From a virus, in IMG/VR virus record IMGVR_UViG_3300005590_000001, positions 1-64,000 of that record: 64,000 nucleotides of DNA. The stretch is one strand, 5' to 3'. The notes below the pieces were generated by a model that did no database searches, was not told the origin of the DNA, and saw nothing but the letters and a program-made list of their open reading frames with translations. The position numbers and the translations under genes are program-made. Numbering within the stretch: the first letter of the stretch is position 1; each line of letters starts with the position of its first letter. Below are positions 651-52,073 of this stretch, piece by piece.

Positions 651-2586
651 TAGTGGTTGGATAGATCATAAAGAGGGTGTTGCAGAAATTGAGGCTTTGA
701 AACCTCAGATTATTTACGGCGGTACTCCAGATATGCGACAATCTGGTGCCGGAAAAGTGCAACTCTTATACTCTGTCTATGATTCTTTTCCTGTTATTCA
801 CCAAGGTTCTGCTCCCTCTTGTGTTGCTTGTGCAACTGCTGGCGCTCTTGATTGTCTTCGAAAAACTGAAATTGCAGATGGTGATCGAGAAGATTTTGTA
901 AATTTCTCAGTCGAAGAATTCATCTATTTTGTCAGTAGAGTTATTATCGGCAAAAATAGACTGCGTGGTAGTGGTGGATCTTTAGTTTCTTGGGCTGTTG
1001 CTGGCTTAGAACAAATAGGATTTATTGTTAAAGATAAGTATGGAAACTTAGATCTTACTTCTTATAGTGCAAAAAGAGCAGTTGATTGGGGTGACGGACG
1101 TAATATTCCGGGTTCAGAATTAGTACAAATTGCTGCTGGACAAAAAATACTTGATTTTGTGCGGATTAAGTCTTACGAAGAGGCTCGTGATGCAATCTAT
1201 AATAAATATCCAGTGATAGTTGGAAGTCAGTATGGATACTCACGACAAAGAGATGCTGAAGGATTTGCTCTACAAAATACTAGATGGGCGCATTGTTATT
1301 TACCAAACTCTTTTATTTGGGGGGATGAGTTTAAAAAAATACAAGATTTGTCTGTTGGTGACGGAATTTATTCTCATGATGGTGAACTTACAGAAGTAAC
1401 AGAAATTAAAAAACAAAAATATTGTGGAGATATTTACAATATTCGTGTTTCTAATGGATTTCATAAAGTTACTAGCGACCATCCATTTTTAGTAAAATAT
1501 CAGTATTTACGCAACAGAGAATGTATTCCTTATGATGGATCAGTTTTAGATAATGTAACTTCTAATGTTGTGACAAAATCTAAAACCAAATTAGCATGGA
1601 TCAAGGCAAAAGATTTGTGTCAAGATGATTATCTAATAATGCCAAAACCTAAATTACCATCGCAATCTTTCATACCAGATAATAAAGAATTAAAGATTAC
1701 TCCTAATAGTGATTTAGCTTGGTTTTTTGGTATGTATTTGGGTGATGGTTACTCTACTAAAAATCATAAAATTATTTTTACGCAAAATATTAATGAAACC
1801 AATAATATTAATCGGCTTTTAAGAGTAGCTAAAAAATATTTTAATCTTCTTGGAACTGTAAAAAATAGGAAAATAAAAGAAAATTGCAATGCAGTAAATA
1901 TTATTTTCTACAGCGCAAAACTTTCTAACTTTATGCATAAGTGGTTTAAAACTAAAAATCTAAAAGAAATACCCCAATGGTTATTATCAAAAGAATGGGA
2001 CTTAAGATCTTTATTAATGGGTTTTAATGATTCTGACGGATGTTATTTAGATAACAAATGGTATAGGTTTTGTATCACAAACAGCTCTTATAAGTTGATA
2101 CAGCAATTTAACTTTATTATCAATTATTTAGGTTTTAAGTGTTGGTATAGAGAAATTGCCGGCGGTATGACCATCTTTAATAATAAAAAATATCAAAGAA
2201 AAAGGCAATATGCTTTGAATGTAAATCTTAAAAAGTTTAATAATTCTGATTTTTGTTACAATAATATTAAAAAAATAGAAAAGGAATTTTATTCTGATGA
2301 AATCATCACTCTTGAGACGGCAAATCATACTTATGTGGTAAACGGATCTTTATCCCATAACTGTATGTGGTGGTCTGGAGTAGACGATTCTGGTCGTAGA
2401 CCGGGAATTTGTAATCAGAATAGCTGGGGACGATCTTATCATTACGGTCCTAAACGACATAATCAGCCAGATGGATCTTTTTGGATTGATGCAGATAATG
2501 CCGATAAAATGTGCAGAAATGGAGATGCATGGGCTATTTCAAACTTTAAAGGATTTCCACTTAGAGCTGACTGGAGAATAATATGA
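634..2586 (+). CDS. Papain-like (C1) cysteine peptidase interrupted by an intein
   Basis: The 650-residue precursor is a 294-residue C1-type peptidase with a 356-residue intein (residues 221-576). The nucleophile region HQGSAPSCVACATAG puts Cys63 in the position of the papain QGxCGSCWAF motif. The catalytic His is His220 (TRWAH), and the Asn lies in NQNSWG (Asn596), the classic NSWG element. The intein sits directly after the catalytic His, so the protease cannot be active before splicing. Neighbours are a secreted protein and a membrane-anchored thioredoxin fusion. No signal peptide is seen. A role in virion maturation or host-protein cleavage is possible but unproven. Confidence 0.88.
   Translation: MIDPNDSGWIDHKEGVAEIEALKPQIIYGGTPDMRQSGAGKVQLLYSVYDSFPVIHQGSAPSCVACATAGALDCLRKTEIADGDREDFVNFSVEEFIYFVSRVIIGKNRLRGSGGSLVSWAVAGLEQIGFIVKDKYGNLDLTSYSAKRAVDWGDGRNIPGSELVQIAAGQKILDFVRIKSYEEARDAIYNKYPVIVGSQYGYSRQRDAEGFALQNTRWAHCYLPNSFIWGDEFKKIQDLSVGDGIYSHDGELTEVTEIKKQKYCGDIYNIRVSNGFHKVTSDHPFLVKYQYLRNRECIPYDGSVLDNVTSNVVTKSKTKLAWIKAKDLCQDDYLIMPKPKLPSQSFIPDNKELKITPNSDLAWFFGMYLGDGYSTKNHKIIFTQNINETNNINRLLRVAKKYFNLLGTVKNRKIKENCNAVNIIFYSAKLSNFMHKWFKTKNLKEIPQWLLSKEWDLRSLLMGFNDSDGCYLDNKWYRFCITNSSYKLIQQFNFIINYLGFKCWYREIAGGMTIFNNKKYQRKRQYALNVNLKKFNNSDFCYNNIKKIEKEFYSDEIITLETANHTYVVNGSLSHNCMWWSGVDDSGRRPGICNQNSWGRSYHYGPKRHNQPDGSFWIDADNADKMCRNGDAWAISNFKGFPLRADWRII
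1294..2361 (+). mobile_element. Intein with LAGLIDADG endonuclease in the C1 peptidase
   Basis: The intein begins at Cys221 (CYLPNSFIW) and ends at Asn576 (SLSHN), followed by Cys577 as the +1 nucleophile. The splicing N-block (HKVTSDHPFLV) and the C-terminal block ending His-Asn are visible. Two degenerate LAGLIDADG helices, FFGMYLGDGYS and LLMGFNDSDGCY, mark the embedded homing endonuclease. Insertion lies between the catalytic His and the next extein residue. All splicing residues look intact, so splicing is expected. Confidence 0.9.
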
Positions 2587-17240: not shown

Positions 17241-19724
17241 CTAAACATAAAGTTCCTTAATAGTATTTAAATTATTTTTAGCCCAATCTAAAATCTGATC
17301 AATACCAGTAGTAATATCTACTTTCGGCGACCACTCAAAAATACGCTGAACTTTATCTAGATCCGATATGTATATACGTTGATCAGCACGACGTTGTTCG
17401 CCGTTTTTATCCACAGATACAAACTTTTCGCCGGTTTTCTCTTCTACCATATTGATTAGTTCAAGTACTGACAATGTATTATTTTTACCACCGCCGACAT
17501 TAACTACAGTTGAAGGTCCGCCGTTATGTAAATACTGAATCTGCTTCAAAACTAAATCTTGAATATCATCCATAAATAGGCAGTCACGCACCTGTTTACC
17601 ACCCCAGCCGTAAATTGTTACTGGTAACTTAAGTAGATTAGCAATGACGAACCACGCGACCCATCCCTGCTCGGATTTTCCCCACTGATAAGGTCCAGCC
17701 AAACAATTGTGTACATGAAAATTATTTGCAATAAAATTATGACTATTTTCTACAGTCATATCATATACGTCATGAATTCCTATAGATTTTTTGTCTACAA
17801 TTTGATCCCAAACCATTCCTTCACCGCTGGTATCTTTGGTGTGAAGCTGTAACCAATCCTTAAATTTTGAGATTGCTAAATCTTCTTTCAAAAATTCTGA
17901 CAAATACATTAAATTATTTTGCCGATGATCATTATAGCTATATCCAATCTTATTAAATTTAGCATATGTATCTTTAGCAGATCCCAATCGTAGTTCAACA
18001 CCAATGGAAGTAGATCCGTCACTATTTTCATATTTAAGTGTTTGATGTAGTGAACTACCAATTCCGAACTCTAATAGCAGATCTCTTAATTCATACATAA
18101 ATGCATACAAATTATCTTGATAATCTTCAAGTTTACACTGAGTCATATTAAGATTTTGTAATTCTAATTTTTCTTGTCCCTTTCTGTTTCTATTTACCAC
18201 ATTGGGACAAGATCCTTCAGCGCCAAACAAACCACCCAAGAATTCTGCTTTGATATCTGTATCGGCAGATTTGATCCAATCCGGAACCAAATATTGATTG
18301 GTTACTTTTCTGTTGGTTGGCAACCCAAGTAAATACATATAGAATGAGAATGAAATACTACTAACACATATCTTTTTTGACTCTCCATCAATAATTTTAC
18401 CATTAGTTAATTCAGATTTAGAATTACTTTTAAAGATATCAGAACAATGAAATCCTAATTCCTTAATTTCATCTCTAATTTTTAATAAAGTTGCATCATG
18501 TTCATCATAAATTTGCATATTAATGGCAAAGTAATCTTTACCATTATCACTCCTTTGGCGTTTTTTAAATGACAAATGTCCGTCGCCGAAACACCACCCT
18601 AACAAACGAGCAATTTTATAAATGTTAGAATTGTTACATTTGAGCGGTAATAAACCTTTATTTTCTAAATCCGCAATAGACTTATCAATAAATTTTTGTG
18701 AGAATAACAAATCTGGATTAGAGATTGCCTCTCTATATTGATTTGAAGATAAAATTACTTTGTCTGATAATGCAGAAATATGTTTGCGTGTTCTTAAATC
18801 TGGATTAATTTCCACAAAAGAACCATGAGATATGTTTTCTAATTTTTGATATCCAGCAGGTGTGTAATACTGATGACAGTCTGTCGATTGAAGTTTAAAA
18901 CCCCTGCGAGTTGTCACTTCAAACAATTCTTTTTGACCGTTATGAAAGACACCGGTAGGTGTAGAATTATACCCTTGGTTGTCTTTAACGTCAATATCTT
19001 TGTCAATATTGATTAATTGTAGATCGCCGGATTTTGTCTTAATAAGAGTATCAGCAGCTAAACAACTAAACCGATTGATAACTGCCGGAATACTATAGGC
19101 GTCAGACCATTCCTGAATAAGTAAGTCGGCCATTGCTTTAGAAACGCCGTAAATACTACGGTCTCCGCCGTTGAGATTAAATCTCGTTGTTATTCCTCTT
19201 TCTGTAAATCCGTCACGTTCGTGTAATGCGACCATTACCGCTTGTTCTGGAGTAAGTTGAGGCTTAATAATATTATTTTTCTGCCGTGGAATAATATCTA
19301 CCCATTCATAACGAGTAGGTTTTTCTACATATGCAAAGTGATTGCAAGGTTCTCCCGGATATACCTTATTGGTAGACCAAAATACAATTGGAATTTTCGT
19401 TTTTCTAGAATACTCTAGAGTATTAAGCACACCAATTGTATTATTCTGAATATCGAATGCGGGATTCTTATAATTCACGGCTGATGGCTGAGCTGCCGTC
19501 AAAAGAATCGCATGATAATCGTCTCCAAGATTCTTGAAATCCTCCGGATTTCTAATGTCGCCGTGAATAAAATTTACTCCATGTTCTTTCAAACGCGGTA
19601 GATTAAATTCACTACCTCGGCGGACTAGGTTGTCTACCACATCCACCATCCATCCGTCTTTGGCAAAGTTACATGCTAAGTTTGCACCGATGAATCCGGC
19701 GCCGCCCAAAATTAAAAGTTTCAT
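17241..19724 (-). CDS. NAD-dependent sugar epimerase/dehydratase (SDR) interrupted by an intein
   Basis: The 827-residue precursor holds a 374-residue extended SDR enzyme and a 453-residue intein. ILGGAGFIGANLA is the GxxGxxG NAD site at the N-terminus. STNKVY and YGVSKAMADLL give the Ser/Tyr/Lys catalytic group. After the intein the frame continues CLAGPYQWGKSEQGWV, then IYGWGGKQVRDCLFMDD, typical of CDP-paratose 2-epimerase or UDP-hexose epimerase relatives. It probably supplies an activated sugar to the glycosyltransferases around it. The substrate is not determined. Confidence 0.88.
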   Translation of the reverse strand: MKLLILGGAGFIGANLACNFAKDGWMVDVVDNLVRRGSEFNLPRLKEHGVNFIHGDIRNPEDFKNLGDDYHAILLTAAQPSAVNYKNPAFDIQNNTIGVLNTLEYSRKTKIPIVFWSTNKVYPGEPCNHFAYVEKPTRYEWVDIIPRQKNNIIKPQLTPEQAVMVALHERDGFTERGITTRFNLNGGDRSIYGVSKAMADLLIQEWSDAYSIPAVINRFSCLAADTLIKTKSGDLQLINIDKDIDVKDNQGYNSTPTGVFHNGQKELFEVTTRRGFKLQSTDCHQYYTPAGYQKLENISHGSFVEINPDLRTRKHISALSDKVILSSNQYREAISNPDLLFSQKFIDKSIADLENKGLLPLKCNNSNIYKIARLLGWCFGDGHLSFKKRQRSDNGKDYFAINMQIYDEHDATLLKIRDEIKELGFHCSDIFKSNSKSELTNGKIIDGESKKICVSSISFSFYMYLLGLPTNRKVTNQYLVPDWIKSADTDIKAEFLGGLFGAEGSCPNVVNRNRKGQEKLELQNLNMTQCKLEDYQDNLYAFMYELRDLLLEFGIGSSLHQTLKYENSDGSTSIGVELRLGSAKDTYAKFNKIGYSYNDHRQNNLMYLSEFLKEDLAISKFKDWLQLHTKDTSGEGMVWDQIVDKKSIGIHDVYDMTVENSHNFIANNFHVHNCLAGPYQWGKSEQGWVAWFVIANLLKLPVTIYGWGGKQVRDCLFMDDIQDLVLKQIQYLHNGGPSTVVNVGGGKNNTLSVLELINMVEEKTGEKFVSVDKNGEQRRADQRIYISDLDKVQRIFEWSPKVDITTGIDQILDWAKNNLNTIKELYV
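17706..19064 (-). mobile_element. Intein with LAGLIDADG endonuclease in the SDR epimerase
   Basis: Starts at Cys221 (CLAADTLIKTKSGD) and ends at Asn673 (NNFHVHN), with Cys as +1 residue. Endonuclease motifs are LLGWCFGDGHL and FLGGLFGAEGS. The terminal His-Asn and the intein block VYDMTVENSHNFIA are intact. The host site NRFS/CLAGPYQWG is the conserved substrate-side loop of the SDR fold, so the enzyme needs splicing to function. Confidence 0.9.
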
Positions 19725-30808: not shown

Positions 30809-31011
30809 CTATCATTTTCCCATAATGAAATCATCTTAAAACAATCTATACAATATTCTGCATAACCACCACATTCAAGTATTAAAATTCTAGTACTGTT
30901 GTGTATACACAGACTGTCTCTTATTCTTTGTTTAATCTGAGCATTCTTTCTTGCAGTATTGGGCTCTCTATCTCTCACGTTTGGGTTTAATAACTCCACT
31001 TTTCTTTTCAT
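30805..31011 (-). CDS. Small Cys-containing protein
   Basis: About 68 residues from MKRKVELLNPNVRDREPNTA, with ILECGGYAEYCIDCFKMISL, a possible CxxC zinc half-site. The start at 31011 lies in the end of the metallophosphoesterase gene (44-base overlap). Unknown. Confidence 0.55.
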   Translation of the reverse strand: MKRKVELLNPNVRDREPNTARKNAQIKQRIRDSLCIHNSTRILILECGGYAEYCIDCFKMISLWENDR

Positions 31012-32512
31012 AAAACTCCACATCATCATGACCCTTGCGTTTACTGAGAAGATCAAAAATTTCTATTTCAGATACTGGCCGAATTTCTTTCCAGATTCTA
31101 TAAATAGTTTCCGGAGATACTTCTGTTGAACGACGCTCAGGCCAAATCGCATCTAAGGTTTCTTCGCGTTGATCGTGGCAATTGCCAGTGAGTACAACCT
31201 TACCATTTCTACGCATCAAAAAGTTTCCATTATTACACTTAATGCACCAAAATTTTTGGTTATCTACACGTCGAGAATTAAATCTATTTTTTAGATTTGT
31301 AATATCTACTCTGGTTTTATCTTTGGAAACAGATAATTGATATTGAATATTTTTTGTAAATCCAGTACCTTCTCTGCTATATTTAGTTGCTCCGCAACCA
31401 TTAGTTACCGCTGCATGTTGCAGAATATCAATCTCTTCTTCTTTAGCTGAATAAATTATAACACCACCCGAGTCGGTAAAACAACCGTCTGAGTGCCCAT
31501 ATGCTTCTAATATCGCTTCAAATTGAGATCTTTTTACAAAAGCTAATTTAGGATCTAAACCTTTGATTTTATATTGCAAGATGTTTTCCGGAATATAAAA
31601 GTTAAAACTTGTATAATTCTTTTTGTTTTTAGTTTTAAAAATTATTCCATTATTTTTAAGTACATATTCAATATAATCTTTTTTATACTGCTTCGAAACT
31701 CTAATACGACATAGGTTTGTTTCTGTTTTAATAGAACCATCTGCTGCAATTAAAATCAGTAACTTTAATTCGGCGTCAGTTAAATCTACAGAAGATGTCC
31801 AATCGTGACCACAACGCGCCACAGTGGGTCTAGACTGTTGAAAAAAGTCTTTAGCTTCTGTAAACACCATCCGATCATCATTATTAAATGAAACACATCG
31901 ATGTTTATCAGTAAAGCACATACTCATGGATGGAGAATCAAATTGATATACATCTCCAGAGTATAAAATTTCTATAATATCATTAACAGTATCATCTACA
32001 AGATTACCATGTTCATCCATAGAGTAAATTTCTTCACCGATGAATAGTTCATATCTCGTTTTCCATCCGCGTTTCGTAAGAATTTCAGTTTGCATATCCA
32101 TGCAATGACCGTATAAATGGTAAGATTCACGATGAGAAGCTGGCCAATAAGCATGTGGATAATGACTTAAGAAACAACGAGCATCACATATCTGAATATC
32201 CATTGTATCCTTAACCATGCCCTGTCCCCATACTTCTTCGCAAGCTTTCCAACTTGGATCATGATTACCTTTGATCAGGAAGTATTGTACACCAGACTTA
32301 AGTTGACTTCTAAACTTGCCAGCGTGTCTGAAAGAGAAATCGCCGAGCAAATATAGAATATCACCTCTATTAATAGTAGAATTAATTTGACCAATTATAA
32401 AAGTTTGCCAAGCATTAATATCTTTAAAGAAGGGATGATCCCCCATAACACCACGTCGTACAGGTAGAAGCACATCGTGGTCAATATGAACATCACTTAA
32501 GAACCATTTCAT
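30968..32512 (-). CDS. Metallophosphoesterase interrupted by an intein
   Basis: The 514-residue precursor contains a 206-residue calcineurin-like phosphoesterase and a 308-residue intein (137-444). The metal motifs are MKWFLSDVHID, YLLGDFSFR, LIKGNHD, CFLSHYPHAY and, after splicing, YGHCHD. The intein lies between the two histidines of the last GHxH motif, so the unspliced protein cannot assemble its metal site. Downstream genes include a polynucleotide kinase, so the substrate may be an RNA or DNA end. Confidence 0.9.
   Translation of the reverse strand: MKWFLSDVHIDHDVLLPVRRGVMGDHPFFKDINAWQTFIIGQINSTINRGDILYLLGDFSFRHAGKFRSQLKSGVQYFLIKGNHDPSWKACEEVWGQGMVKDTMDIQICDARCFLSHYPHAYWPASHRESYHLYGHCMDMQTEILTKRGWKTRYELFIGEEIYSMDEHGNLVDDTVNDIIEILYSGDVYQFDSPSMSMCFTDKHRCVSFNNDDRMVFTEAKDFFQQSRPTVARCGHDWTSSVDLTDAELKLLILIAADGSIKTETNLCRIRVSKQYKKDYIEYVLKNNGIIFKTKNKKNYTSFNFYIPENILQYKIKGLDPKLAFVKRSQFEAILEAYGHSDGCFTDSGGVIIYSAKEEEIDILQHAAVTNGCGATKYSREGTGFTKNIQYQLSVSKDKTRVDITNLKNRFNSRRVDNQKFWCIKCNNGNFLMRRNGKVVLTGNCHDQREETLDAIWPERRSTEVSPETIYRIWKEIRPVSEIEIFDLLSKRKGHDDVEFYEKKSGVIKPKRER
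31181..32104 (-). mobile_element. Intein with LAGLIDADG endonuclease in the metallophosphoesterase
   Basis: Begins at Cys137 (CMDMQTEILTKRGWKT) and ends at Asn444 (GKVVLTGN) before Cys445. Degenerate endonuclease helices are LILIAADGSI and LEAYGHSDGCF. The penultimate residue is Gly rather than His (TGN), a known but less common intein end, so splicing chemistry may be slower. Confidence 0.87.
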
Positions 32513-33402: not shown

Positions 33403-33814
33403 TTCGTTTACGTTCTTCCATCTTTCTTTTTACACATGTACGAATATCGGCGTTAACCGCTCGTAAATTATTATTTGCTAATTGCATTTTAATAAACGTC
33501 ATATTCTGACGCATATCTCCATACATTTTTTCTGTGGGTACTAACTTCATTAGATTATCAAGAGTTAGCCGTGGAGTAACAAATTCTTGAATCAAGTTAG
33601 ATTGACGCCTTTTCTTGTTATCATTGCCACGTTCAGCATCAATCATTAATTTCTGTGAAAGAATTTTAGCTTGAGTTCTAATATTAACTGTAGTAATCTG
33701 TGATAATGTATTAATATTATCTAAAAGAGATTGATATGCTTGCATAGCTTCAATATTACGAGTGTGTTTTGCTTTATTTAAATTTGAAAATATTTCTTGA
33801 ATTAAAACATTCAT
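33374..33814 (-). CDS. Helical protein, YqeY-like in part
   Basis: The 146 residues are helical and contain RRQSNLIQEFVTPRLTLDNLMKLV, which resembles the middle of YqeY/GatB-like helical domains (EFxPxxLTxDxL). The gene at 50178-50567 is a clearer member. Overlaps the upstream and downstream genes. Assignment is tentative. Confidence 0.55.
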   Translation of the reverse strand: MNVLIQEIFSNLNKAKHTRNIEAMQAYQSLLDNINTLSQITTVNIRTQAKILSQKLMIDAERGNDNKKRRQSNLIQEFVTPRLTLDNLMKLVPTEKMYGDMRQNMTFIKMQLANNNLRAVNADIRTCVKRKMEERKRNESNTDSRN

Positions 33815-34353
33815 TTTATATAACCCTTATTTTTTCGACATCGATCACAGTATGTAAATCTTCGTGCTTTAAGAATATCATCACAATCTTTGCATCTTTT
33901 AATCATTAAATGCATTGTTACACCAGTTGCATCATACATATCACAATTAACCATAAATTGGTGTAACGCATCAGATATCATAGTCGGCGGAATTTCATTC
34001 GCTTCAAATCTATTATTAATAATACCTTTATATTGACCCCAACAGACAATATCAAAACGATCGCTGCCAGCCCTAAATTCAATATGAGGATGATAATATT
34101 TAGACGTGGGTAAAGTTTTAATCTTTCCTAAAAAGATATGCTTACCCCTATAAGTTTGTGACGGAACAATAAATAGATTTACAGTTGTAGGAAAAGTTCT
34201 ACCCTGTATTTCAAATTTGAATGTTTTTCTTTTTGAGAGATTGAAAGAATTTCTACCATCATTAAAAGACCAGCCCTCGTTTAAGAGGGCCTCTATGTCT
34301 TTTTCCCATTTTTTAATTAATTCTTTATGTTCTTTTCGCATTTTTCTTTCCAC
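33811..34353 (-). CDS. E2-like protein with C-terminal zinc module (copy 1)
   Basis: The 180 residues have a basic helical N-terminus, a beta-rich centre, and YYHPHIEFRAGSDRFDIVCW (about 86-105). In this stretch HPH and a later Cys104 fall where E2 enzymes have HPN and the catalytic Cys. It ends in a zinc site CKDCDDILKARRFTYCDRC (Cys154, 157, 169, 172). It shares this HPx...CxG plus zinc layout with the genes at 36395 and 38018. Assigned as an E2-like candidate from motifs and from the adjacent E1, JAMM and beta-grasp genes. Confidence 0.55.
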   Translation of the reverse strand: MERKMRKEHKELIKKWEKDIEALLNEGWSFNDGRNSFNLSKRKTFKFEIQGRTFPTTVNLFIVPSQTYRGKHIFLGKIKTLPTSKYYHPHIEFRAGSDRFDIVCWGQYKGIINNRFEANEIPPTMISDALHQFMVNCDMYDATGVTMHLMIKRCKDCDDILKARRFTYCDRCRKNKGYIK

Positions 34354-34603
34354 GAAATCTACGTTGGTAATAGGGTCTATCTACCATTACAGAAAATCCT
34401 GCAAAGTTTTGCAACTCAGGCTTCCCATCCCATTTTTCTTTATAAACAGGAGGCCAGTGTAGATTAAAAACTACTTGTAAAGTTCGAACATCATCCAGAT
34501 TTGCTTTCCCCATTTCTAAATGGTTAAGAAAATCAACAAGCCAATCATCATAATCGGCAATAATAGTTGAGTTCTTATCAAATCTAATCTTAATTTTCTT
34601 CAT
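34325..34603 (-). CDS. Hypothetical protein in the ubiquitin-like cassette
   Basis: The 92 residues begin MKKIKIRFDKNSTIIADYDD and end with a basic tail YQRRFRGKKNAKRT. The middle (VVFNLHWPPVYKEKWDG) is Trp- and Pro-rich. It directly follows the E1 gene (1-base overlap). No family recognised, but its position suggests a role in the pathway. Confidence 0.65.
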   Translation of the reverse strand: MKKIKIRFDKNSTIIADYDDWLVDFLNHLEMGKANLDDVRTLQVVFNLHWPPVYKEKWDGKPELQNFAGFSVMVDRPYYQRRFRGKKNAKRT

Positions 34604-35286
34604 TACTTCTTACCTTTGTTATCGTCTTCAAATTTAAGTTCTTCAAACAAACCAATCGGCAGATGAATTAGGAAATTCTTAAGAACATAACGGCCCATTA
34701 CGGCAGAAGTAAATTGTGAAACAAGCATAGATGCGGCAATATTTGCTCCATGTTTGATCATGGGGTTATGACAACCACCAGTATTTTGTACAGCTTTATC
34801 ACTATAGAAAGTATTGGCGTAACCTTCTTTTGATTCGTCGTCTACCAAAGCGAAAGTACGAATCTGTTCGCCAGCTACACGACTATCAAAGATAAATTTA
34901 GCCTTGTCTTTATAGAACTTGTAAAGCTTTTCTCTCATACTGAAAGTATCAACACACATGAAGAGAACATCATAAGAATCTTTATGGGGTCGCCACCTAT
35001 CATTGATATGTTTAATTTCAATATTTGGATTAATAGAATGCATTTCTTCCGCAGTACATTCAACTTTAGGTCTACCAATATCGGCAGTTTTATAACCCTG
35101 CGAAGTACAGTTGTGTTCCTCAACTGTATCAAAGTCATAAATTGTAATACTACCAACACCGTTGGCGGCAATTGTGCGTGCGATTTCTCGACCAACAGCC
35201 CCGACACCAACAATTAAAGCTTTAGTTTTGCTAACAATATCTTGATCAATAATTTCAGATTGACGAGAGTAACGATCATCAGACAT
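34603..35286 (-). CDS. E1/ThiF-like adenylating enzyme
   Basis: The 227 residues show RYSRQSEI at the N-terminus, the ATP loop ALIVGVGAVGREIA (GxGxxG, residues 27-32), IYDFDTVEEHNCTSQGY with the conserved Asp and Asn, and DVLFMCVDTF. GGCHNP (Cys172) is the best candidate for the thioester cysteine. It would adenylate the C-terminus of the beta-grasp protein at 37356. Length fits minimal bacterial E1 enzymes. Next to a JAMM protease and E2-like genes, it is not a MoeB or ThiF for cofactors. Confidence 0.9.
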   Translation of the reverse strand: MSDDRYSRQSEIIDQDIVSKTKALIVGVGAVGREIARTIAANGVGSITIYDFDTVEEHNCTSQGYKTADIGRPKVECTAEEMHSINPNIEIKHINDRWRPHKDSYDVLFMCVDTFSMREKLYKFYKDKAKFIFDSRVAGEQIRTFALVDDESKEGYANTFYSDKAVQNTGGCHNPMIKHGANIAASMLVSQFTSAVMGRYVLKNFLIHLPIGLFEELKFEDDNKGKK

Positions 35287-36392
35287 TATACAACTCCTTC
35301 ATAACCAAGTTCTTGAACTTCTTTAATATATTGCTCAAGAGCTTTTTGTAAAAAGTTAGGACGAACTTTATATTTACCACAGATATATGACTGCTTTAAC
35401 GGTGTTAATTCGTTAAAGACACATTTCAAACCACGGTAAACCTCTGGATGATCATCCATAATTATAGAACAATCATGATCATCAAACTTAGATTCAATGT
35501 TTGTCATATTTCTAAACATTCTGACCACTTCATTTTTTGGATGACTATAAAGTGTATCAAAATATTTATAATCAGCTTTATTTAATTGACACTTCTTTTC
35601 GGTAAGAAGACGTAAAGCAATTCGCCGACTGATAATTTCTTTTTTATCCTCAGCTTCTGGAATTGTTGCCCCGTTACTTATTGGGTAATAACCAGCATTA
35701 TGACTGTTAGGTTGATAATGTCCTACAACCCTACCAGTACCAATATTGTGATTGTATTGCTTTTTTCTGACACACTCTTTTAACTCTTTTAACCAATTGT
35801 CATGAAAAGCTTTATATTGTGAGAGAAATGACTCTTCAATATAAGAAATATTATATTGTTGAGCAGCTTCTTCAAGATCAAAAATGTATGAAGTTGGAAC
35901 AATCCAATTACCAACTATTACTTTTGCAGATTCAAGAGTTTGCTTTTGTCCAAGACGAGAGTCATACATAGTACGACAATAGTCTTTATTCTTTTTTGCC
36001 ACAATATACATGCAAGCGAAATCAGCATCCTCTTTAATTTTCTTAAAGTTATCCTCATCTACATTTGAAGGATTGGGAGATTCTCCGGGATGAGTATGAA
36101 TCCAAATACGTGAGAATGTAATAGGGTCCATTTTGTCATCGAACATACGAGCTTCTCGCCAATCAGTATATTCTTTCTCAAGAAATTCTGTATTGCCGCC
36201 GGTACATTCTTGGGGTACACACAAAACATCTACAACTCGGTGTATATCATCCTCACTATTTTTAGAAATTCCCATAAGAGATACTTCTAAAAATGATTCT
36301 GATTTTTCTCCACCACCCTGAACATTTTTTTCAATACAATTATCACGAAAGAATAAAACTTTCGCGAAAGCTTTTTCATCAAAAATAATCAC
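35286..36392 (-). CDS. JAB/JAMM metalloprotease (deubiquitinase-like)
   Basis: The 368 residues carry a complete JAMM motif: IWIHTHPGESPNPSNVD, i.e. His99-x-His101-x7-Ser109-x2-Asp112, with Glu36 as the upstream acid. A long C-terminal part (about 160-368), with no recognised domain, may bind partners. The likely role is to process the beta-grasp precursor or remove it from targets. It abuts the E1 gene (1-base overlap) and lies three bases below the E2-like gene. Confidence 0.9.
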   Translation of the reverse strand: MIIFDEKAFAKVLFFRDNCIEKNVQGGGEKSESFLEVSLMGISKNSEDDIHRVVDVLCVPQECTGGNTEFLEKEYTDWREARMFDDKMDPITFSRIWIHTHPGESPNPSNVDEDNFKKIKEDADFACMYIVAKKNKDYCRTMYDSRLGQKQTLESAKVIVGNWIVPTSYIFDLEEAAQQYNISYIEESFLSQYKAFHDNWLKELKECVRKKQYNHNIGTGRVVGHYQPNSHNAGYYPISNGATIPEAEDKKEIISRRIALRLLTEKKCQLNKADYKYFDTLYSHPKNEVVRMFRNMTNIESKFDDHDCSIIMDDHPEVYRGLKCVFNELTPLKQSYICGKYKVRPNFLQKALEQYIKEVQELGYEGVV

Positions 36393-36394
36393 TA

Positions 36395-37288
36395 TTAGTT
36401 ACCTTTTCGACAACTAGTACAGATGCTTTTCTCCGCACCTTTAGGAGTACGCACACCAACTGTACGTTTTTCACAAGTCTCACACACACTTAAGAAATGA
36501 GACAGATGAGGATATCCTGTGTGCTCATCTATATTCATTCCACTATTCACACATTTTTCACACAACCTAACATTAGATGTTGCACATGCAACAAATTCAT
36601 CTACTGGCCTAAGATCACCACATTCTTGACACTCATAACCAACCCATTTTGCAATTGGAGAATGAGCACCTTCTCGCCGACCAAGATTTTCATCCCCGCC
36701 GTATTTAGTAAGAACTTTTAATACTATATCAAAAGCATCTCCTAAGCGACAATTGGATGCAAATTTTTCGTACATTTTTCTGAAATCACCAAGACATAAA
36801 TTGTATGCTCCATTTACATAGGGATGAAACATACCATCCTTTTCAGTATTGTTTTCAGCTGGAACAACCTTGACGTGATTTTCACCTAAAGTACTGTAAC
36901 CAAAAATCATACTAATATCAAACTTACCGAAGTCAAAACTTTCTCCGGATACTACATCTTCCATAATGATATGTTTAGAACGTACTTTGAACAAGTTAGT
37001 ACGCACGCTTCTAATTCTTGTACAGTTTTCTCTAATGTAATTTAACTGATTTTCAATTTCATCATCAGTTAAAAACATTGATCGGCTTAATACATTTTGG
37101 AGATGATACATAGCATCTCTATTCGGAAGAGATTCTGCTAATATAGATAATGCCCCAATAAGCTCATCCATATTATTAACATCTGGTTTACGAATAGTTG
37201 CGAGTCTATCAAAATCAATTGTTTTAAAATGACGAAATTCGTTTCTATATACAGCTATGTGATCTTTTAAAATATCTTCTACTGCCAT
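36395..37288 (-). CDS. E2-like protein with two zinc modules (copy 2)
   Basis: The 297 residues have a helical N-terminus, a beta-rich centre and GMFHPYVNGAYNLCLGDF (residues 152-169), where HP and Cys165 match the HPN...Cys pattern of E2 conjugating enzymes. Two CxxC pairs follow (Cys220/223 with 243/246, Cys269/272 with 290/293), making two zinc ribbons or a treble-clef pair. It is the best E2 candidate of the three. Zinc modules might substitute for an E3. Confidence 0.62.
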   Translation of the reverse strand: MAVEDILKDHIAVYRNEFRHFKTIDFDRLATIRKPDVNNMDELIGALSILAESLPNRDAMYHLQNVLSRSMFLTDDEIENQLNYIRENCTRIRSVRTNLFKVRSKHIIMEDVVSGESFDFGKFDISMIFGYSTLGENHVKVVPAENNTEKDGMFHPYVNGAYNLCLGDFRKMYEKFASNCRLGDAFDIVLKVLTKYGGDENLGRREGAHSPIAKWVGYECQECGDLRPVDEFVACATSNVRLCEKCVNSGMNIDEHTGYPHLSHFLSVCETCEKRTVGVRTPKGAEKSICTSCRKGN

Positions 37289-37295
37289 TAGTGAA

Positions 37296-37338
37296 TCCTA
37301 AAAAGAAAACAAAGACGGGTATTTGCATACCCGTCTTT
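37296..37338 (-). terminator. Strong hairpin terminator after the beta-grasp gene
   Basis: A perfect 12-bp stem (AAAGACGGGTAT with its complement, 37311-37322 and 37327-37338) has a 4-base loop. On the minus strand it is followed by GTTTTCTTTTTAG. It lies between the beta-grasp gene and the E2-like gene, so it would lower expression of the downstream enzymes relative to the modifier. Confidence 0.88.
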
Positions 37339-37355
37339 GAGATACGACAGAAAGA

Positions 37356-37970
37356 CTACTCTGCAGAAGTCTTCCACACATCAGATTTTGCGTCAGGAAC
37401 GCTACAGCCCATTCGAGCACAATAGTGTGATGCATCGCCCTTGAGACCAAGATAAGCGATTGCAGAAAACACATTGTAAACGTCAGGCTTAAGAAGCTGA
37501 GACAGAGCATAATTAGCCTCTGCACGCTGCTTATTCAGATCAGCAAGACGCTTCTCGGTAGCTTCAATCTCTCGGTTGAGAGAGCCAGAATCAGCCCGCA
37601 TCATACCAAGAACCTCAGCAACAACAGTCTTCTGAGCCTTACAAGCGGTTTCAAACTCTTCTTTCAAAACCTCACCGATAACACCGTCATTGATGGCAAG
37701 CTTACCTGCACCAAAATTGACAATGCTTTCGTAAGTCTTCGTTTGAAGAGCATCAACCTCATCAGCACCCTTCATATCACGCTGGGTAACAGTGATGATA
37801 TCACCATTGCCAAGAACCTGATCTTCAGCGGCATCCTGACGATTAACCCGAACAATAGAATTGCTGAAGTTAATACCCTGACCACTAACAAGCTTGCCAA
37901 CAGTCGTACCATCTTCAACATTCAGACCAACAGACGCACCAGTGGCCTTAACCAAGTTTACCCGAATCAT
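37356..37970 (-). CDS. Ubiquitin-like beta-grasp protein with helical C-terminal extension
   Basis: The 204 residues begin MIRVNLVKATGASVGLNVED and continue to LGNGDIITVTQRDMKGA (about 55-71), a compact beta-grasp fold of the ThiS/ubiquitin-like type ending near a Gly. Residues 75-204 are helical with a coiled coil (NREIEATEKRLADLNKQRAE). Cleavage after the MKG glycine by the JAMM protease is a reasonable idea. The gene is richer in G+C than its neighbours, has an ideal GGAGGT Shine-Dalgarno and its own terminator: signs of high expression. Confidence 0.8.
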   Translation of the reverse strand: MIRVNLVKATGASVGLNVEDGTTVGKLVSGQGINFSNSIVRVNRQDAAEDQVLGNGDIITVTQRDMKGADEVDALQTKTYESIVNFGAGKLAINDGVIGEVLKEEFETACKAQKTVVAEVLGMMRADSGSLNREIEATEKRLADLNKQRAEANYALSQLLKPDVYNVFSAIAYLGLKGDASHYCARMGCSVPDAKSDVWKTSAE

Positions 37971-38017
37971 TTTAAACCTCCAATTGGAAAAAGGGGAAAA
38001 CTTAGAACTTACTCAAC

Positions 38018-38626
38018 TCAAGCAAGTTCTTTGCACACATTACAGACTTTGTCTTTTAAAATTACATCGTCGCACATTTCACAACGATTAACTTTAAAAA
38101 ATCTACCAAGTCCGTCTTTGATAGTTGCTTTTTGCAACATATCAATAATAATTTCTACACATAATCCTATATCATGTTTTTTTACAAGAGCATCTCTAAC
38201 ATGATGAGCAACACTACCCAAACACAAAAGAAGTTCTTTGCGGTGTGGATTTTCATGCGACATTTTATAAATGTTATAATGAGAACATCTTTCTTTATTG
38301 TTCGCATAATTAAAATCTATATTACCACCGGTTACAAACATTCCATGACGATGTGCTTGTAAAACTTTTTCAATATCAAAAAAGATTTTAAATTCACCAA
38401 AATTTAATTGTGTTACAGAACAGGTAATATTGCCAGTGTTAAATACAAAACCATAGACATCCTTTTTATATTCATGTCTAAAATAATAATCAATACCTCG
38501 TAATTCATTAATCCGTGTTAAGTGTCTAGCAAGATCATTAATTCTATAACCCGGTATCTTATCAGTTGGAAATCTATATAAGAAATCTTTTTTTGTTACT
38601 TTAATGCTTTCTGTATTAGTTTCCAC
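38018..38626 (-). CDS. E2-like protein with C-terminal zinc module (copy 3)
   Basis: The 202 residues match the genes at 33811 and 36395 in layout: AHRHGMFVTGGNIDF, then ELLLCLGSVAHHV with Cys135, followed by a helical segment and the zinc site CEMCDDVILKDKVCNVC (Cys182, 185, 195, 198). The catalytic-type Cys falls in LCLG as in copy 2. It lies directly upstream of the beta-grasp gene. The E2 relation is inferred from pattern and context. Confidence 0.55.
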   Translation of the reverse strand: METNTESIKVTKKDFLYRFPTDKIPGYRINDLARHLTRINELRGIDYYFRHEYKKDVYGFVFNTGNITCSVTQLNFGEFKIFFDIEKVLQAHRHGMFVTGGNIDFNYANNKERCSHYNIYKMSHENPHRKELLLCLGSVAHHVRDALVKKHDIGLCVEIIIDMLQKATIKDGLGRFFKVNRCEMCDDVILKDKVCNVCKELA

Positions 38627-43981: not shown

Positions 43982-44647
43982 ATGAAATATACAAAAGAAT
44001 TATTAGAACCAATTGTTCGAGAATGCACATCTATAAGACAAGTTTTACAGAGACTAGGACTCAAAGAAACTGGCGGAAATTATTCAAATATTGGAAAAAG
44101 AATAGATAAACATGGTATTGATCGATCTCATTTTACTGGACAGGGACATATGAAGGGTAAAAAAGCATTAAATAGAAAATCAACTAAATATTACTTAGAT
44201 AATAAAGCTCATATACACTCCAATGCATTACGTTTACGATTACTTAACGAAGGATATTTCGAACACCAATGCCAAGGATGTGGTGCAAAAGAGTGGAGGG
44301 GTGATTCTATACCTCTAGAATTACACCATATTGATTGTAACCATCACAATAATAGCTTAGATAACTTAATGATTTTATGCCCAAATTGTCACAAATATGA
44401 ACATGATCAATTAAAAAAGAAATCTAAAAACCCTAAACATAAAAAAAAATGTAAAGACTGCACTGAGCAAATAAGAAAAGAGTCGTTGAGATGTAGATCA
44501 TGTGCGTCAAAATTACGACCGACTAAAATTAATTGGCCAGATACCAAATCTTTAAAGAAAATGGTATCTGAAACCAATTATTCTGTAGTTGCAAGATCTT
44601 TAAAAGTTTCTGATAACGCAATTAGAAAACGATTGAGAAATCATTAA
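43982..44647 (+). CDS. HNH homing endonuclease (free-standing)
   Basis: The 221 residues have an N-terminal helix-turn-helix region (TSIRQVLQRLGLKETGGNYS with a later IDRSHF). The HNH/zinc core is HQCQGCGAKEW, LELHHIDCNHHNNSLDNL and ILCPNCHKYEH. A C-terminal zinc pair (CKDC, CRSC) and a final helix LKVSDNAIRKRL follow. Paralogue of the gene at 51444. It is opposite to the surrounding operon and sits next to tRNA-Leu, consistent with homing into a tRNA region. Confidence 0.9.
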   Translation: MKYTKELLEPIVRECTSIRQVLQRLGLKETGGNYSNIGKRIDKHGIDRSHFTGQGHMKGKKALNRKSTKYYLDNKAHIHSNALRLRLLNEGYFEHQCQGCGAKEWRGDSIPLELHHIDCNHHNNSLDNLMILCPNCHKYEHDQLKKKSKNPKHKKKCKDCTEQIRKESLRCRSCASKLRPTKINWPDTKSLKKMVSETNYSVVARSLKVSDNAIRKRLRNH

Positions 44648-45921: not shown

Positions 45922-46117
45922 TTTTATTAACCTTTAAAGATTTTGTAACAGAAAACAAACGGGCTGACCAAAAATCAGGTGACTGATTATACTCTTGACA
46001 ATATGAAGCAACTACTTTCTTTTCTATCTGCTCTTTAGTAAATTGCTCAGGTAAACCTCCATTAATAGTTATACATTCAACGGGTTTTTGTTTATAAGAC
46101 AAAACTACAATATTCAT
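45914..46117 (-). CDS. Hypothetical protein
   Basis: The 67 residues begin MNIVVLSYKQKPVECITING and contain SYCQEYNQSPDFWSARLFSV. It lies between the ligase C-half and the ATPase gene, overlapping both by a few bases. Unknown. Confidence 0.6.
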   Translation of the reverse strand: MNIVVLSYKQKPVECITINGGLPEQFTKEQIEKKVVASYCQEYNQSPDFWSARLFSVTKSLKVNKNE

Positions 46118-46950
46118 GATTCTTCTTCCATATCCATATAATTGTCATCATCTTTAACAATTTGTTCAAGAACTTTAAAGTCCCAGCTTTTATGTTTGAA
46201 AGTATGCCAGCCGGGTTTGTTAATACGAACACATACTCCCTCTTTTGGGTGACGTGAATCTATTGGGTCTTCACCTTCTGTGAGTTTATCAATATAATCG
46301 ATTGCCATATCACGAACAGTTCTTATATCATCACCTTCAGGATGTAATCGTGTAAGTTCTGGAACATGTTTGATATTATGATGATTACACCATGATACAA
46401 CTTCGTCCCATGTCCAATCTACAGTTTTACCGTCAGCTAATACCCAAACAATTCTATATACATAGACATCGAATTCACCATCAGCACAACCATAAGTGTA
46501 GGTTATAGTATCACCATACTTTTTACGTAATTGTTTATTATTGCTACGTTTAGTTGGTTGACGTGGCATAATTGGCTGATTTGGACCTTCGAATCCAACC
46601 ACTTCATAGTAGACGATCATATGGTCTTCTAGAAATGGAATTATTTTCGCCGCCGCTTTAGCTCTCATATCTGGGCAATGATATCCCTCTTTCCCTTTGT
46701 CATTTAAGACAACTCTACGAGTACCATTCAGTACTTTTACCTCATTCTCAGATATGGGAATACCCAAACGACGAAGAAATCTCTCAAACCAATTAAGTTC
46801 TCGATTTGCGAGTACTCGACCAGTTCTTTGAGAAGTGTTATGTATTAAAATGTTGTTTGCATAAAAATTATTTGTTGCTGACACCGTTAGATCGTATCGA
46901 TCATTTTTCTTTCTTAGTTTGGTAATCTTGGTGATTTTCTTGTATTTCAT
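46114..46950 (-). CDS. RNA ligase, C-terminal half preceded by a split-intein C-part
   Basis: The product starts with a 38-residue intein C-fragment (MKYKKITKITKLRKKNDRYD, ending NNILIHN) and continues TSQRTGRVLANREL, the segment right after the ligase active-site KVHG. Downstream MIVYYEVVGFEGPNQ and GVCVRINKPGWHTFKHKS match ligase motifs III-IV and V. Joined by trans-splicing to the product at 47797 it would give a complete ligase. The start at 46950 gives a normal-length intein C-part; 46983 is also open. Confidence 0.88.
   Translation of the reverse strand: MKYKKITKITKLRKKNDRYDLTVSATNNFYANNILIHNTSQRTGRVLANRELNWFERFLRRLGIPISENEVKVLNGTRRVVLNDKGKEGYHCPDMRAKAAAKIIPFLEDHMIVYYEVVGFEGPNQPIMPRQPTKRSNNKQLRKKYGDTITYTYGCADGEFDVYVYRIVWVLADGKTVDWTWDEVVSWCNHHNIKHVPELTRLHPEGDDIRTVRDMAIDYIDKLTEGEDPIDSRHPKEGVCVRINKPGWHTFKHKSWDFKVLEQIVKDDDNYMDMEEES
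46837..46950 (-). mobile_element. Split intein, C-terminal fragment
   Basis: Residues 1-38 of the C-half, ending ILIHN with Asn as last residue and Thr as +1. Contains the DRYDLTVSATNNFYANN block typical of intein F/G regions. Length (38 aa) matches known split-intein C parts. Confidence 0.87.
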
Positions 46951-46958
46951 TGGTTTTC

Positions 46959-46969
46959 TGTGTAATAAA
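46959..46969 (+). promoter_or_regulatory. TGYGTAATA dyad upstream of the Vsr-like endonuclease
   Basis: TGTGTAATAAA lies 30 bases before the start codon and is half of an inverted repeat GTGTAAT-AA-ATTACAC. It matches the elements at 43940, 51418 and 63405. Confidence 0.5.
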
Positions 46970-46999
46970 TTACACGACTCCATGTACTTGAGGTGTAAG

Positions 47000-47851
47000 A
47001 TGAATTGTGAAAAATGTAACTTTAAAGCTCAAAAAAGAGGTCAATTAGGTATCCATAAGAAGACGTGTAAAAAATGGAAAAAGTTTTGTAGGAAAATGAC
47101 ATTACAAAAATTTGATTTTTTATATAATCACTTAAAAATGTCTGCGATAGATATTCAAAAAGCATACAAACTCAACTCATACGCAATTGTGTACACATTA
47201 ATGAAGAAGGTTGGATTCAAATGTAGGACTTTGTCTGAATCTGCGAAAATTTGTAGAAAGAAAGTCAAACATCACAACTTTAGTAAAAATCACCCGTCTA
47301 GAAAGAGATGGGAGAAGAGGCTGTTAAAAGAAGAAGGTATCACTAATGTTTTCCAACGTGAATCAGTTAAAAGAAAATCTGTTCAAACTCTACTAAAAAA
47401 ATATGGTGTAGAATCACCATACAAAATTACAACTTCACGAGGGAAAAATATATATTCATCAATTCATAGAAAAGTTGTAACTATATGTCAAGAACTTGAC
47501 ATTGAGATTGCTATTGAGTTTAAGCTTCCTAAAAAATCTGGTCGATATTTTGCTTATGATATATTTATATCTAACACTAAAAAGATTATAGAAGTTTATG
47601 GAGATTATTGGCATGGAAATCCATTAATCTACAAACCGAATGATTTAATCCTTAAGGGGTCAAGCGGTGAAAAAATAGTGAAAGAAAAATGGGAATTTGA
47701 TGAACTTAAAAATCGACATGCTGTTTTAGCAGGTTATCAGGTGTTGATTATATGGGAATCAGATTTAGTTAAAGATATCAATAAATTGATATTAGACTAC
47801 TCATCTGATAAGCATAGATCTCCGATACTTAATTCATCAACTCTTCTATAA
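47000..47851 (+). CDS. Vsr-like (EDxHD-type) free-standing homing endonuclease
   Basis: About 283 residues from MNCEKCNFKAQKRGQLGIHK, with a zinc-finger-like N-terminus. The C-terminal domain reads KKIIEVYGDYWHGNPLIY, then KEKWEFDELKNRHAVLAGYQ and VLIIWESDLV, the Vsr/PD-(D/E)XK pattern of the endonucleases found in fractured genes with split inteins. The ATG at 47000 has a GAGGTG Shine-Dalgarno. It is antisense to the two ligase halves and overlaps the end of the N-half by 55 bases. Confidence 0.88.
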   Translation: MNCEKCNFKAQKRGQLGIHKKTCKKWKKFCRKMTLQKFDFLYNHLKMSAIDIQKAYKLNSYAIVYTLMKKVGFKCRTLSESAKICRKKVKHHNFSKNHPSRKRWEKRLLKEEGITNVFQRESVKRKSVQTLLKKYGVESPYKITTSRGKNIYSSIHRKVVTICQELDIEIAIEFKLPKKSGRYFAYDIFISNTKKIIEVYGDYWHGNPLIYKPNDLILKGSSGEKIVKEKWEFDELKNRHAVLAGYQVLIIWESDLVKDINKLILDYSSDKHRSPILNSSTLL

Positions 47852-48651
47852 ACTGAAAATTCTGGAAGCCAGACAGGATTATTTCCTGTAATGGTCAATT
47901 TAGAGCCATCATCGAACTCCAACTCGAACCATTCACCATCATTGGGAACATAATAAAATTCATCAATTGGGACATAGATATCCTGATGTGTGTTTAAATC
48001 ACGTGCTTTAATATGCACAGTAAGTTTAAGATCAACAATATCTCCGATTTTTTGTGTGCCCAATTCTAATGTTTGAACTTTGGTATTACGCTCTACACAA
48101 CCATGAACTTTATTTGTAATGATTAACTCATCACCAATATTTATCTTTTCAATATTATACCTAAGCTGTTCTGTATCACGATGCTCAGGAAAACATAGTT
48201 CTTTTTTCTTAGTTGGTTTTTGTGAAGAGTTTCGATGAGGGTTTCTGCGTGAAATATATTTGCAACAGATTGGTATTCCTGCAAACTCATCTATTTGATC
48301 GCCCTCTTTTAATGCAGACGTATCTCCGAAGTGATTTAGATAAGAAAGAGGACACCAGAATCCATGAGATCGGACGCCTCGAAATTTTTGTACGCGGACG
48401 CGGCGATTTGGATCGAACATACCGCCTTCATTTGCACCAGTTTCTGGATTCTTACGGCGGATCAAATCGTTCTTCGCCGCAAACTCTGCGGACAACTGCA
48501 ACTCACACGGGAAGTATAAACCCAATGCTTGGTCCGGAGTATCTTTGCCGACAATAATAGTTTCACCCATTACTGTGCCAACGGCTAAACTATGTACTTC
48601 TGGATCTGGGTGTGGAGTAACTGTAACTTTACACACTATTGCTTTGTGCAT
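47797..48651 (-). CDS. RNA ligase, N-terminal half followed by a split-intein N-part
   Basis: The first 184 residues form an N-terminal ligase region ending DELIITNKVHG. Lys181-x-x-Gly184 is the adenylated lysine motif I (KxxG). From Cys185 (CVERNTKVQTLELGTQKIGD) a 100-residue intein N-fragment follows, with the block LEFDDGSKLTITGNNPVW. The long domain before KxxG resembles ligases with an N-terminal OB-like module. It would seal RNA nicks or breaks after healing by the kinase-phosphatase at 32515. Confidence 0.88.
   Translation of the reverse strand: MHKAIVCKVTVTPHPDPEVHSLAVGTVMGETIIVGKDTPDQALGLYFPCELQLSAEFAAKNDLIRRKNPETGANEGGMFDPNRRVRVQKFRGVRSHGFWCPLSYLNHFGDTSALKEGDQIDEFAGIPICCKYISRRNPHRNSSQKPTKKKELCFPEHRDTEQLRYNIEKINIGDELIITNKVHGCVERNTKVQTLELGTQKIGDIVDLKLTVHIKARDLNTHQDIYVPIDEFYYVPNDGEWFELEFDDGSKLTITGNNPVWLPEFSVYRRVDELSIGDLCLSDE
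47800..48099 (-). mobile_element. Split intein, N-terminal fragment
   Basis: Residues 185-284 of the N-half, starting with Cys185 after KVHG and ending at the stop codon. About 100 residues with the A and B splicing blocks. It has no endonuclease; that function is encoded by the separate gene between the halves. Confidence 0.87.
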
Positions 48652-51443: not shown

Positions 51444-52073
51444 ATGACATATAAAGTATCTGATGATGATTTTAAATCATCAATTGAAAAATCAAACAAT
51501 ATAGGTGAAGCACTTAAAAATATGGGGTACACAACAGCATCACAAAATTATAGGATGTTCAATAAAAGAGTAAAACAATTAAATATTGATATTAGTCATT
51601 TTAATGCAAAACGCTGGGAGCGTAATAAGTTTATAAAAAAACCTATTGAAGAATTTCTTCAAAAGAATCGGTGTGTGAATAGTAGTAATCTAAAGAAAAG
51701 GTTGATTAATGAAGGCTTCTTAGAAAACAAATGTTATGAATGTAACATAACAGACTGGCAAAATAAAAAACTTGTAATGCATTTAGAACACAAAGATGGT
51801 GATCCTCTTAATAATGAATTAAGCAATTTAACTTTATTATGTCCTAATTGTCATTCACAAACAAGTACATATTGTCGTGGACAAAAAAGAAAAAAACACA
51901 CAAAAAACAAAAGAAATAAACCTAGATTTCATTTAAGAAAAGTTGAGCGTCCACCTCTTGAAGTTTTAGAACAAGATGTGAAAATTTTAGGTTATTTAGG
52001 TACTGGAAGAAAATATAAAGTTAGTGATAACGCTATTAGAAAATGGATCAAATATTATAAAAATAGCCCTTGA
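51444..52073 (+). CDS. HNH homing endonuclease (free-standing)
   Basis: The 209 residues parallel the gene at 43982. NNIGEALKNMGYTTASQNYR and IDISHFNAKRW form the DNA-binding N-terminus. CYECNITDW, MHLEHKDGDPLNNELSNL and LLCPNCHSQT form the HNH/zinc core, and YKVSDNAIRKWI the C-terminal helix. Its stop codon lies inside tRNA-Gln on the other strand and its 5' side abuts a tRNA fragment. Confidence 0.9.
   Translation: MTYKVSDDDFKSSIEKSNNIGEALKNMGYTTASQNYRMFNKRVKQLNIDISHFNAKRWERNKFIKKPIEEFLQKNRCVNSSNLKKRLINEGFLENKCYECNITDWQNKKLVMHLEHKDGDPLNNELSNLTLLCPNCHSQTSTYCRGQKRKKHTKNKRNKPRFHLRKVERPPLEVLEQDVKILGYLGTGRKYKVSDNAIRKWIKYYKNSP

Follow-up and report, generated by a model that had tools for sequence, protein, structure and literature searches.

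We analysed a window of 64,000 nucleotides (positions 1 to 64,000) of the IMG/VR virus record IMGVR_UViG_3300005590_000001, which comes from a virus of bacteria and has 171,987 bases in full. Between kilobases 33.8 and 38.6, the minus strand of this window carries a cassette of genes for a ubiquitin-like protein and its enzymes; all features of the cassette given below are on that strand. In the order of transcription, the genes lie at 38018-38626, 37356-37970, 36395-37288, 35286-36392, 34603-35286, 34325-34603 and 33811-34353, and from 36395 through 33811 neighbouring genes abut or overlap in an operon-like manner. A preliminary description of this DNA had assigned six of these open reading frames (ORFs), named here by their lower coordinate, to a pathway made up of a modifier, an E1 enzyme, a JAMM protease and three E2-like proteins. 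All six are found where that description placed them, and the modifier, the E1, the JAMM protease and the central E2 are each homologous to the matching class of protein.

Searches of the Pfam, PHROGs, NCBIfam and PADLOC family libraries identified the E1 clearly (PF00899, 6.7e-30) and gave mere hints of JAB and ThiS, and we therefore gathered relatives of the cassette through its E1. This produced a set of 79 loci with an E1 of the 34603 type, mostly on viral contigs, from which most duplicates were removed and in which a few records may be counted twice. Scans with the JAMM or the central E2 as a single-protein query returned no relatives, while E1 alignments succeeded. The ThiF/E1-type adenylating enzyme itself (227 amino acids; 34603..35286) has a single ThiF domain. 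A profile of its phage relatives matched Uba1 (9e-21), ThiF (3e-19) and MoeB (1e-18) among all PDB sequences, and the protein has the GxGxxG and DxDxVxxxN motifs, the Lys, the Asp and the conserved Cys of E1/ThiF enzymes. The residue first put forward as a candidate, Cys172 (codon 34771..34773), is the predicted catalytic Cys. Of 76 aligned relatives, 75 keep it and one has a gap at this point. The JAMM/JAB metalloprotease (368 amino acids; 35286..36392) has the full motif, E36 ... HTHPGESPNPSNVD (residues 99-112), and its profile matches Rpn11 among all PDB sequences (3.2e-10). E36, H99, H101, S109 and D112 are invariant across the aligned set and HxH...SxxD is intact in 73 of 74 relatives, bearing out the complete motif that had been claimed and placing the protein in the JAMM/MPN+ family.

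The modifier precursor (204 amino acids; 37356..37970) consists of a beta-grasp domain (residues 1-68) and a helical tail of about 135 residues with a conserved C-terminus (YCxRMGCxVP...VWxTSA). Its description as a beta-grasp protein was well founded: a profile of the N-terminal 70 residues and their relatives matched SAMP2 over its whole length among PDB sequences (1e-8), followed by proteins of the ThiS/MoaD type, and the modifier of one compact relative (L074) matches Pfam ThiS above the cut-off. Compact relatives (69-78 amino acids) stop at the point matching Gly68 of the window protein (D-M-K-G/A-D-E; codon 37767..37769), mostly with GG and zero to three further residues (KGGR, VEGGE, VEGGNN, MKGGR, KGGK, QGG and similar). 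In the alignment of this region, the window reads D-M-K-G-A, its closest relative (L017, with a modifier 35% identical to 37356) reads L-K-G-A-A and the crAss-type modifiers read KSG[GMA]. Since the compact relatives mostly end in GG and up to three more residues where the window reads K-G-A, the JAMM protease probably removes the tail; cleavage at Gly68, which would also be the site of conjugation, is probably the simplest reading of this pattern of tails and termini. As judged by eye from tail likeness, modifier and tail are fused in L005, L007, L008 and L019, and encoded by separate genes in L018, L024, L030, L032 and L033. The compact modifiers of the latter loci end in DNA, NA or similar, despite the presence of a JAMM and of an E1 with its Cys.

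The central E2-like enzyme (297 amino acids; 36395..37288) has a helical N-terminus, a UBC-like core and a C-terminal zinc module with eight Cys (four CxxC). Profiles of the core were run against all PDB sequences, one made from 7 sequences giving UBE2L3 (0.0026) and one from 22 giving UBE2D3 (1.2e-4); in both cases, all among the 60 matches listed were ubiquitin-conjugating enzymes or E2 fusions or derivatives. The printed alignment places the phage HPx...C on the HPNI...C of UBE2L3 with the catalytic Cys in register, which points to Cys165 (HPY...LCLG; codon 36794..36796) as the catalytic residue and to His155 (codon 36824..36826) as the His of an HPN-like motif. The H, including His155, P, C and G are invariant in all 22 E2 sequences, even though these are 10-26% identical to the window protein. 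An AlphaFold2 (AF2) model of the core, made with 22 sequences, reached a predicted local distance difference test score (pLDDT) of 84.9 and a predicted template modelling score (pTM) of 0.80. The PDB entry nearest to it is 1yf9, an E2 of Leishmania, and UFC1 comes eighth; the viral models that resemble it belong to uncharacterised phage proteins, one of them from crAss phage cr128_1. With its UBC-like core, HPN-type motif and predicted catalytic Cys, 36395 can be classed as an E2, as first proposed; since the structural scores are weak, the claim about its fold is mainly based on sequence.

The two accessory proteins each end in a zinc ribbon; 33811 (180 amino acids; 33811..34353) carries HPHI...VCWG with Cys104 and 38018 (202 amino acids; 38018..38626) carries H-[PY]-N-I-Y...C135-L. 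We compared the window ORFs with an independent profile of 22 E2 cores that excludes every member from the window and from L017. It ranked first exactly the three proteins said to share an HPx...CxG pattern and zinc sites (36395, 2.9e-14; 33811, 1.3e-5; 38018, 4e-5), the next ORF scoring 0.025, and the best values from 500 shuffles of 33811 and 38018 were 0.1 and 0.016. With the zinc ribbons removed, hhalign still scored 33811 at 33.4 (best of 100 shuffles, 18.8) and 38018 at 28.7 (21.7), compared to a best score of 23.3 for 52 unrelated ORFs. The resemblance is well beyond chance, and the CxxC counts (four in 36395, two each in 33811 and 38018) agree with the zinc sites. For 38018, the E2-like character stands, but the E2 His may be H116 (HYNIY, verbatim HPNIY in the L017 homologue) and not that of the NPH nearer the Cys. 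When 33811 and 38018 were aligned with each other, the motif was misplaced, and this alignment was not used. The four family libraries gave nothing useful for any of the three E2-like proteins, the best match being phrog_34476 to the zinc ribbon of 38018 (E 0.003).

Another locus (L130:51-5360) has five tandem E2-like genes before its JAMM and E1, with long and short copies alternating, and the two short copies lack the motif Cys. It is possible that these are active/inactive pairs, recalling the pairs of E2 and ubiquitin E2 variant (UEV) in eukaryotes. Because L130 has five in a row, repeated E2s look like a theme of these cassettes rather than an oddity of the window. The tripled E2-like/zinc architecture and the tailed modifier of the preliminary description are thus supported, but its view of them as new has to be toned down, tails also being common in phage relatives.

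A JAMM gene is present in 74 of the 79 E1 loci, directly adjacent in 59, and the usual order across phage loci is Ub-E2-JAMM-E1; because this gene order is conserved, we conclude that the core four proteins belong together. The closest relative (L017; IMGVR 3300044678_002996) has an E2-like gene (192 amino acids), modifier, E2, JAMM, E1 (54% identity) and a 92-amino-acid gene in the same order as the window, and keeps 5 of the 6 cassette genes. There are two further groups, one of loci with compact modifiers and one of phages, crAss-like ones among them, whose modifiers have long tails. The cassette is shared by dozens of unrelated phages of very different hosts, including crAss-like gut phages and the cultured crAss001 and Flavobacterium phages. 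The sole bacterial locus found with a full cassette is L074, from an Ignavibacteriae metagenome-assembled genome. As its E2 was found in no other of 297 genomes drawn from its phylum, the one phylum sampled, this E2 type looks mainly viral. Matches to an Acinetobacter MoeB (CAKLQH020000004.1, L002; 'Acinetobacter phage MD-2021a') were set aside as a stretch of bacterial chromosome (moeB, kdpA, kdpB), apparently mislabelled.

The modifier gene differs from its neighbours in composition. Its guanine-plus-cytosine (GC) content of 0.46 is the highest of the 84 window ORFs (mean 0.34, z=3.0), and its codon choice (AAG, CAG, CTT) also sets it apart. Between the modifier and E2 genes lies an intrinsic terminator with a 13-bp stem and a T-rich tail (37310..37339), found at the same position in L017. 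A terminator-like hairpin occurs in this gap in 18 of 27 further loci (7% of shuffled gaps), and in 27 of 28 loci, the window included, the modifier gene has a higher GC content than the genes of its enzymes; these tallies come from related, non-independent loci and are to be read as counts, not probabilities. The high GC content and the terminator after the modifier suggest that it is likely made in excess of its enzymes, a layout we report here as new.

Taken as a whole, the cassette looks like the ubiquitin machinery in compact form, with a tag, enzymes to load and attach it and an enzyme to trim or remove it; the set looks complete and a tagging mechanism is strongly indicated. We consider it probable that it encodes a ubiquitin-like conjugation cascade of the phage's own. 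In such a cascade, the modifier 37356 would be produced in large amount as a precursor and the JAMM 35286 would cleave past Gly68, releasing the helical tail and leaving a C-terminal Gly. The E1 34603 would adenylate this Gly and hold the modifier on Cys172, from which the central E2 36395 would receive it on Cys165 and join it to targets, with its zinc module as a guide. The zinc-ribbon proteins 33811 and 38018 might serve as additional E2s, as E2 partners without catalysis of their own or as adaptors for targets, and the JAMM might also take the tag off. Because the modifier looks to be expressed much more strongly than its enzymes and the crAss copies lie among replication genes, the targets would most likely be host or phage proteins that are abundant during takeover or replication.

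The observed basis of this cascade is homology, active-site residues, gene order, the terminator and composition; from these we infer that conjugates exist, where the modifier is cut, how the proteins share the work and what each chemical step is. Several observations weigh against the cascade. The window modifier has a single Gly at the presumed site (KGA) instead of GG, and some relatives lack a C-terminal Gly altogether (DNA or NA among the loci with a separate tail gene, TKNA or TKSAN in a few others). In the E1 family of 34603, the Arg that MoeB/ThiF carry in the NLxRQ loop is not conserved, other residues taking its place. The best PDB neighbours of the 36395 core model are E2s, yet weak ones (E 0.11, TM score 0.37), and an AF2 model of the full-length protein from 6 sequences was poor (pLDDT 51), leaving Foldseek uninformative. 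Lastly, the E2 assignments of 33811 and 38018 are supported by weak sequence profiles, albeit ones independent of the window, and no homologue of 33811 was found in L017.

The single-Gly terminus, being atypical, could also mean that the modifier is joined to something other than a lysine, either a lipid, as happens with Atg8, or an uncommon site on a protein; other bacterial E1-E2 pathways can use odd targets, as in conjugation to cGAS (PMC10097602). However, the cassette has no lipid-handling or nucleotidyltransferase partner, and we regard such a target as improbable. A larger share of doubt concerns the accessory proteins: 33811 and 38018 could be proteins that bind zinc and lack the E2 fold, their motif being a mere look-alike, which would leave 36395 as the only catalytic E2. 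By themselves they give no useful family or PDB match, and they resemble the E2 profile weakly, with a contribution from the shared zinc ribbon. On the other hand, the independent profile puts no window ORF but 36395 ahead of them, the signal outlasts removal of the ribbons, and L130 is an example of an E2 array that includes copies without the Cys; a single catalytic E2 therefore strikes us as unlikely, though with a real chance of being right.

The resemblance of the modifier and E1 to ThiS, MoaD, SAMP2, ThiF and MoeB, together with the ThiF/JAB pairs known from sulfur pathways (PMC1779556), would also fit a sulfur carrier, which the JAMM would trim and the E1 would thiocarboxylate in the manner of ThiS, MoaD or CysO, and which would supply sulfur for a nucleotide, a tRNA or a cofactor. 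Yet sulfur transfer has no need of the UBC-like HP...C protein that is linked to the E1 across phages, and no rhodanese, thiazole or molybdopterin genes were noted beside the cassette, making this very unlikely. Alternatively, the phage could do no tagging of its own and use a decoy modifier or a de-conjugating JAMM against the Bil or CBASS Cap2/Cap3 systems of its host. Host E1-E2-JAB systems do act in anti-phage defence (PMC10097602, PMC11354881) and the phage has every matching part; nevertheless, the retained E1 Cys, E2 Cys and modifier exceed what a decoy or protease would require, and the cassette occurs in phages of very different hosts. We judge counter-defence to have a rather low probability, and prefer a conjugation cascade that serves the phage itself.

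The claimed likeness to bacterial operons joining E1, E2, JAB and ubiquitin-like genes is borne out, the cassette being of the same kind as those operons (PMC1779556) and as Bil (PMC11354881). BilABCD, an ISG15-like bacterial defence, combines Ub, E2, JAB and E1 activities, with two beta-grasp domains in BilA and inactive plus active adenylation domains and a Cys domain in BilD (PMC11354881). These four activities are common to both; however, the phage cassette is phage-borne where Bil is host-borne, and has one beta-grasp domain (by modifier profile match) with a helical tail, a 227-residue E1 with one ThiF domain and E2s without a useful match in the family libraries, so that it is not a Bil system by these features. 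Membership of the type II cyclic-oligonucleotide-based antiphage signalling system (CBASS; Cap2/Cap3) can also be set aside, since the cassette genes searched gave no match to a cGAS/DncV-like nucleotidyltransferase (CD-NTase) and E1 and E2 are separate. The lambda tail proteins I and K likewise place a phage ubiquitin-like domain beside a JAB-NlpC domain (PMC1779556), but are tail assembly genes without E1 or E2.

PRTRC plasmids, whose system we take to be group 6d of Iyer 2006, have the same order of ubiquitin-like (C), E2-like (B), JAB (A) and ThiF genes, with a clearly related E1 (4e-18). In contrast, the E2, modifier and JAB have no significant profile similarity to those of the one PRTRC set compared, and the phage has neither ParB nor PRTRC partners. 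With the PRTRC_ThiF model scoring 26.7 against a cut-off of 144.75, the cassette shares its gene order with this system without belonging to it. Close parallels are also known in phages: crAss001 gp79-gp78-gp77-gp76 and Flavobacterium phage Fpv3 have a tailed ubiquitin-like protein, an E2-like protein (H[SP]H...C[LTI]G), a JAMM and a ThiF in the same order, differing from the window by their one E2 each and by a primase and/or uracil-DNA glycosylase alongside. Their genes are annotated as hypothetical, metalloprotease or thiamine biosynthesis. The text of the crAss001 atlas (PMC10172136) names virion proteins without gp76-gp79 among them, so it lends no support to a virion role for these four. 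Compared to the eukaryotic E2s UBE2D3 and UBE2L3, the phage E2 has in common the HPN-like motif, catalytic Cys and core profile match, and differs by very low identity, a fused zinc module and a weak structural match.

Ubiquitin-like tagging in prokaryotes is discussed mainly in terms of host metabolism, plasmid systems and anti-phage defence. Our searches of the open-access literature turned up no account of a Ub-E2-JAB-E1 cassette in phages, earlier mention elsewhere being possible, and a whole phage protein-tagging system seems to have gone largely unnoticed. We tentatively propose, as a conceivable rather than a probable generalisation, that tailed phages of many lineages, including crAss-like phages, run a virus-specific programme of ubiquitin-like conjugation. 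Its E2s would be of the HPN type known from eukaryotes, standing in some genomes as arrays of active and Cys-less copies that resemble eukaryotic E2/UEV pairs, and an over-expressed modifier would feed it. The phage E2 family profile matches eukaryotic E2s better than other proteins of known structure and, if the proposal is true, phages would be a main reservoir, and perhaps a source, of E2-type conjugation beyond eukaryotes and archaea. A full pathway in many phage lineages and in cultured gut phages reverses the question, which becomes what phages tag and why. Tractable systems for it are crAss001 in Bacteroides intestinalis and Fpv3 in Flavobacterium psychrophilum.

Directly after the E1 lies a gene for a small conserved protein of 92 amino acids (34325..34603), with a homologue in the same place in L017 (E=1e-5), and upstream of the cassette is a nicotinamide phosphoribosyltransferase gene, named from tblastn matches. 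Elsewhere in the window, an RNA ligase is apparently broken by a split intein (46114-46983, minus; 46919-47851, plus; 47797-48651, minus). The C-terminal half combines an intein-splicing match (9e-7) with an RNA_ligase domain, and the opposite-strand ORF between the halves is endonuclease-like by eye. Further intein-bearing ORFs lie at 634-2586 (plus), 17241-19724 (minus) and 30968-32512 (minus), which is many for one phage; a protease-like protein and an NAD-dependent epimerase contain inteins with LAGLIDADG-like domains, and a phosphoesterase has an intein-like insert, seen by eye. Two HNH-type ORFs on the plus strand (43982-44647 and, by eye, 51444-52073) run opposite to their surroundings and lie near tRNA genes.

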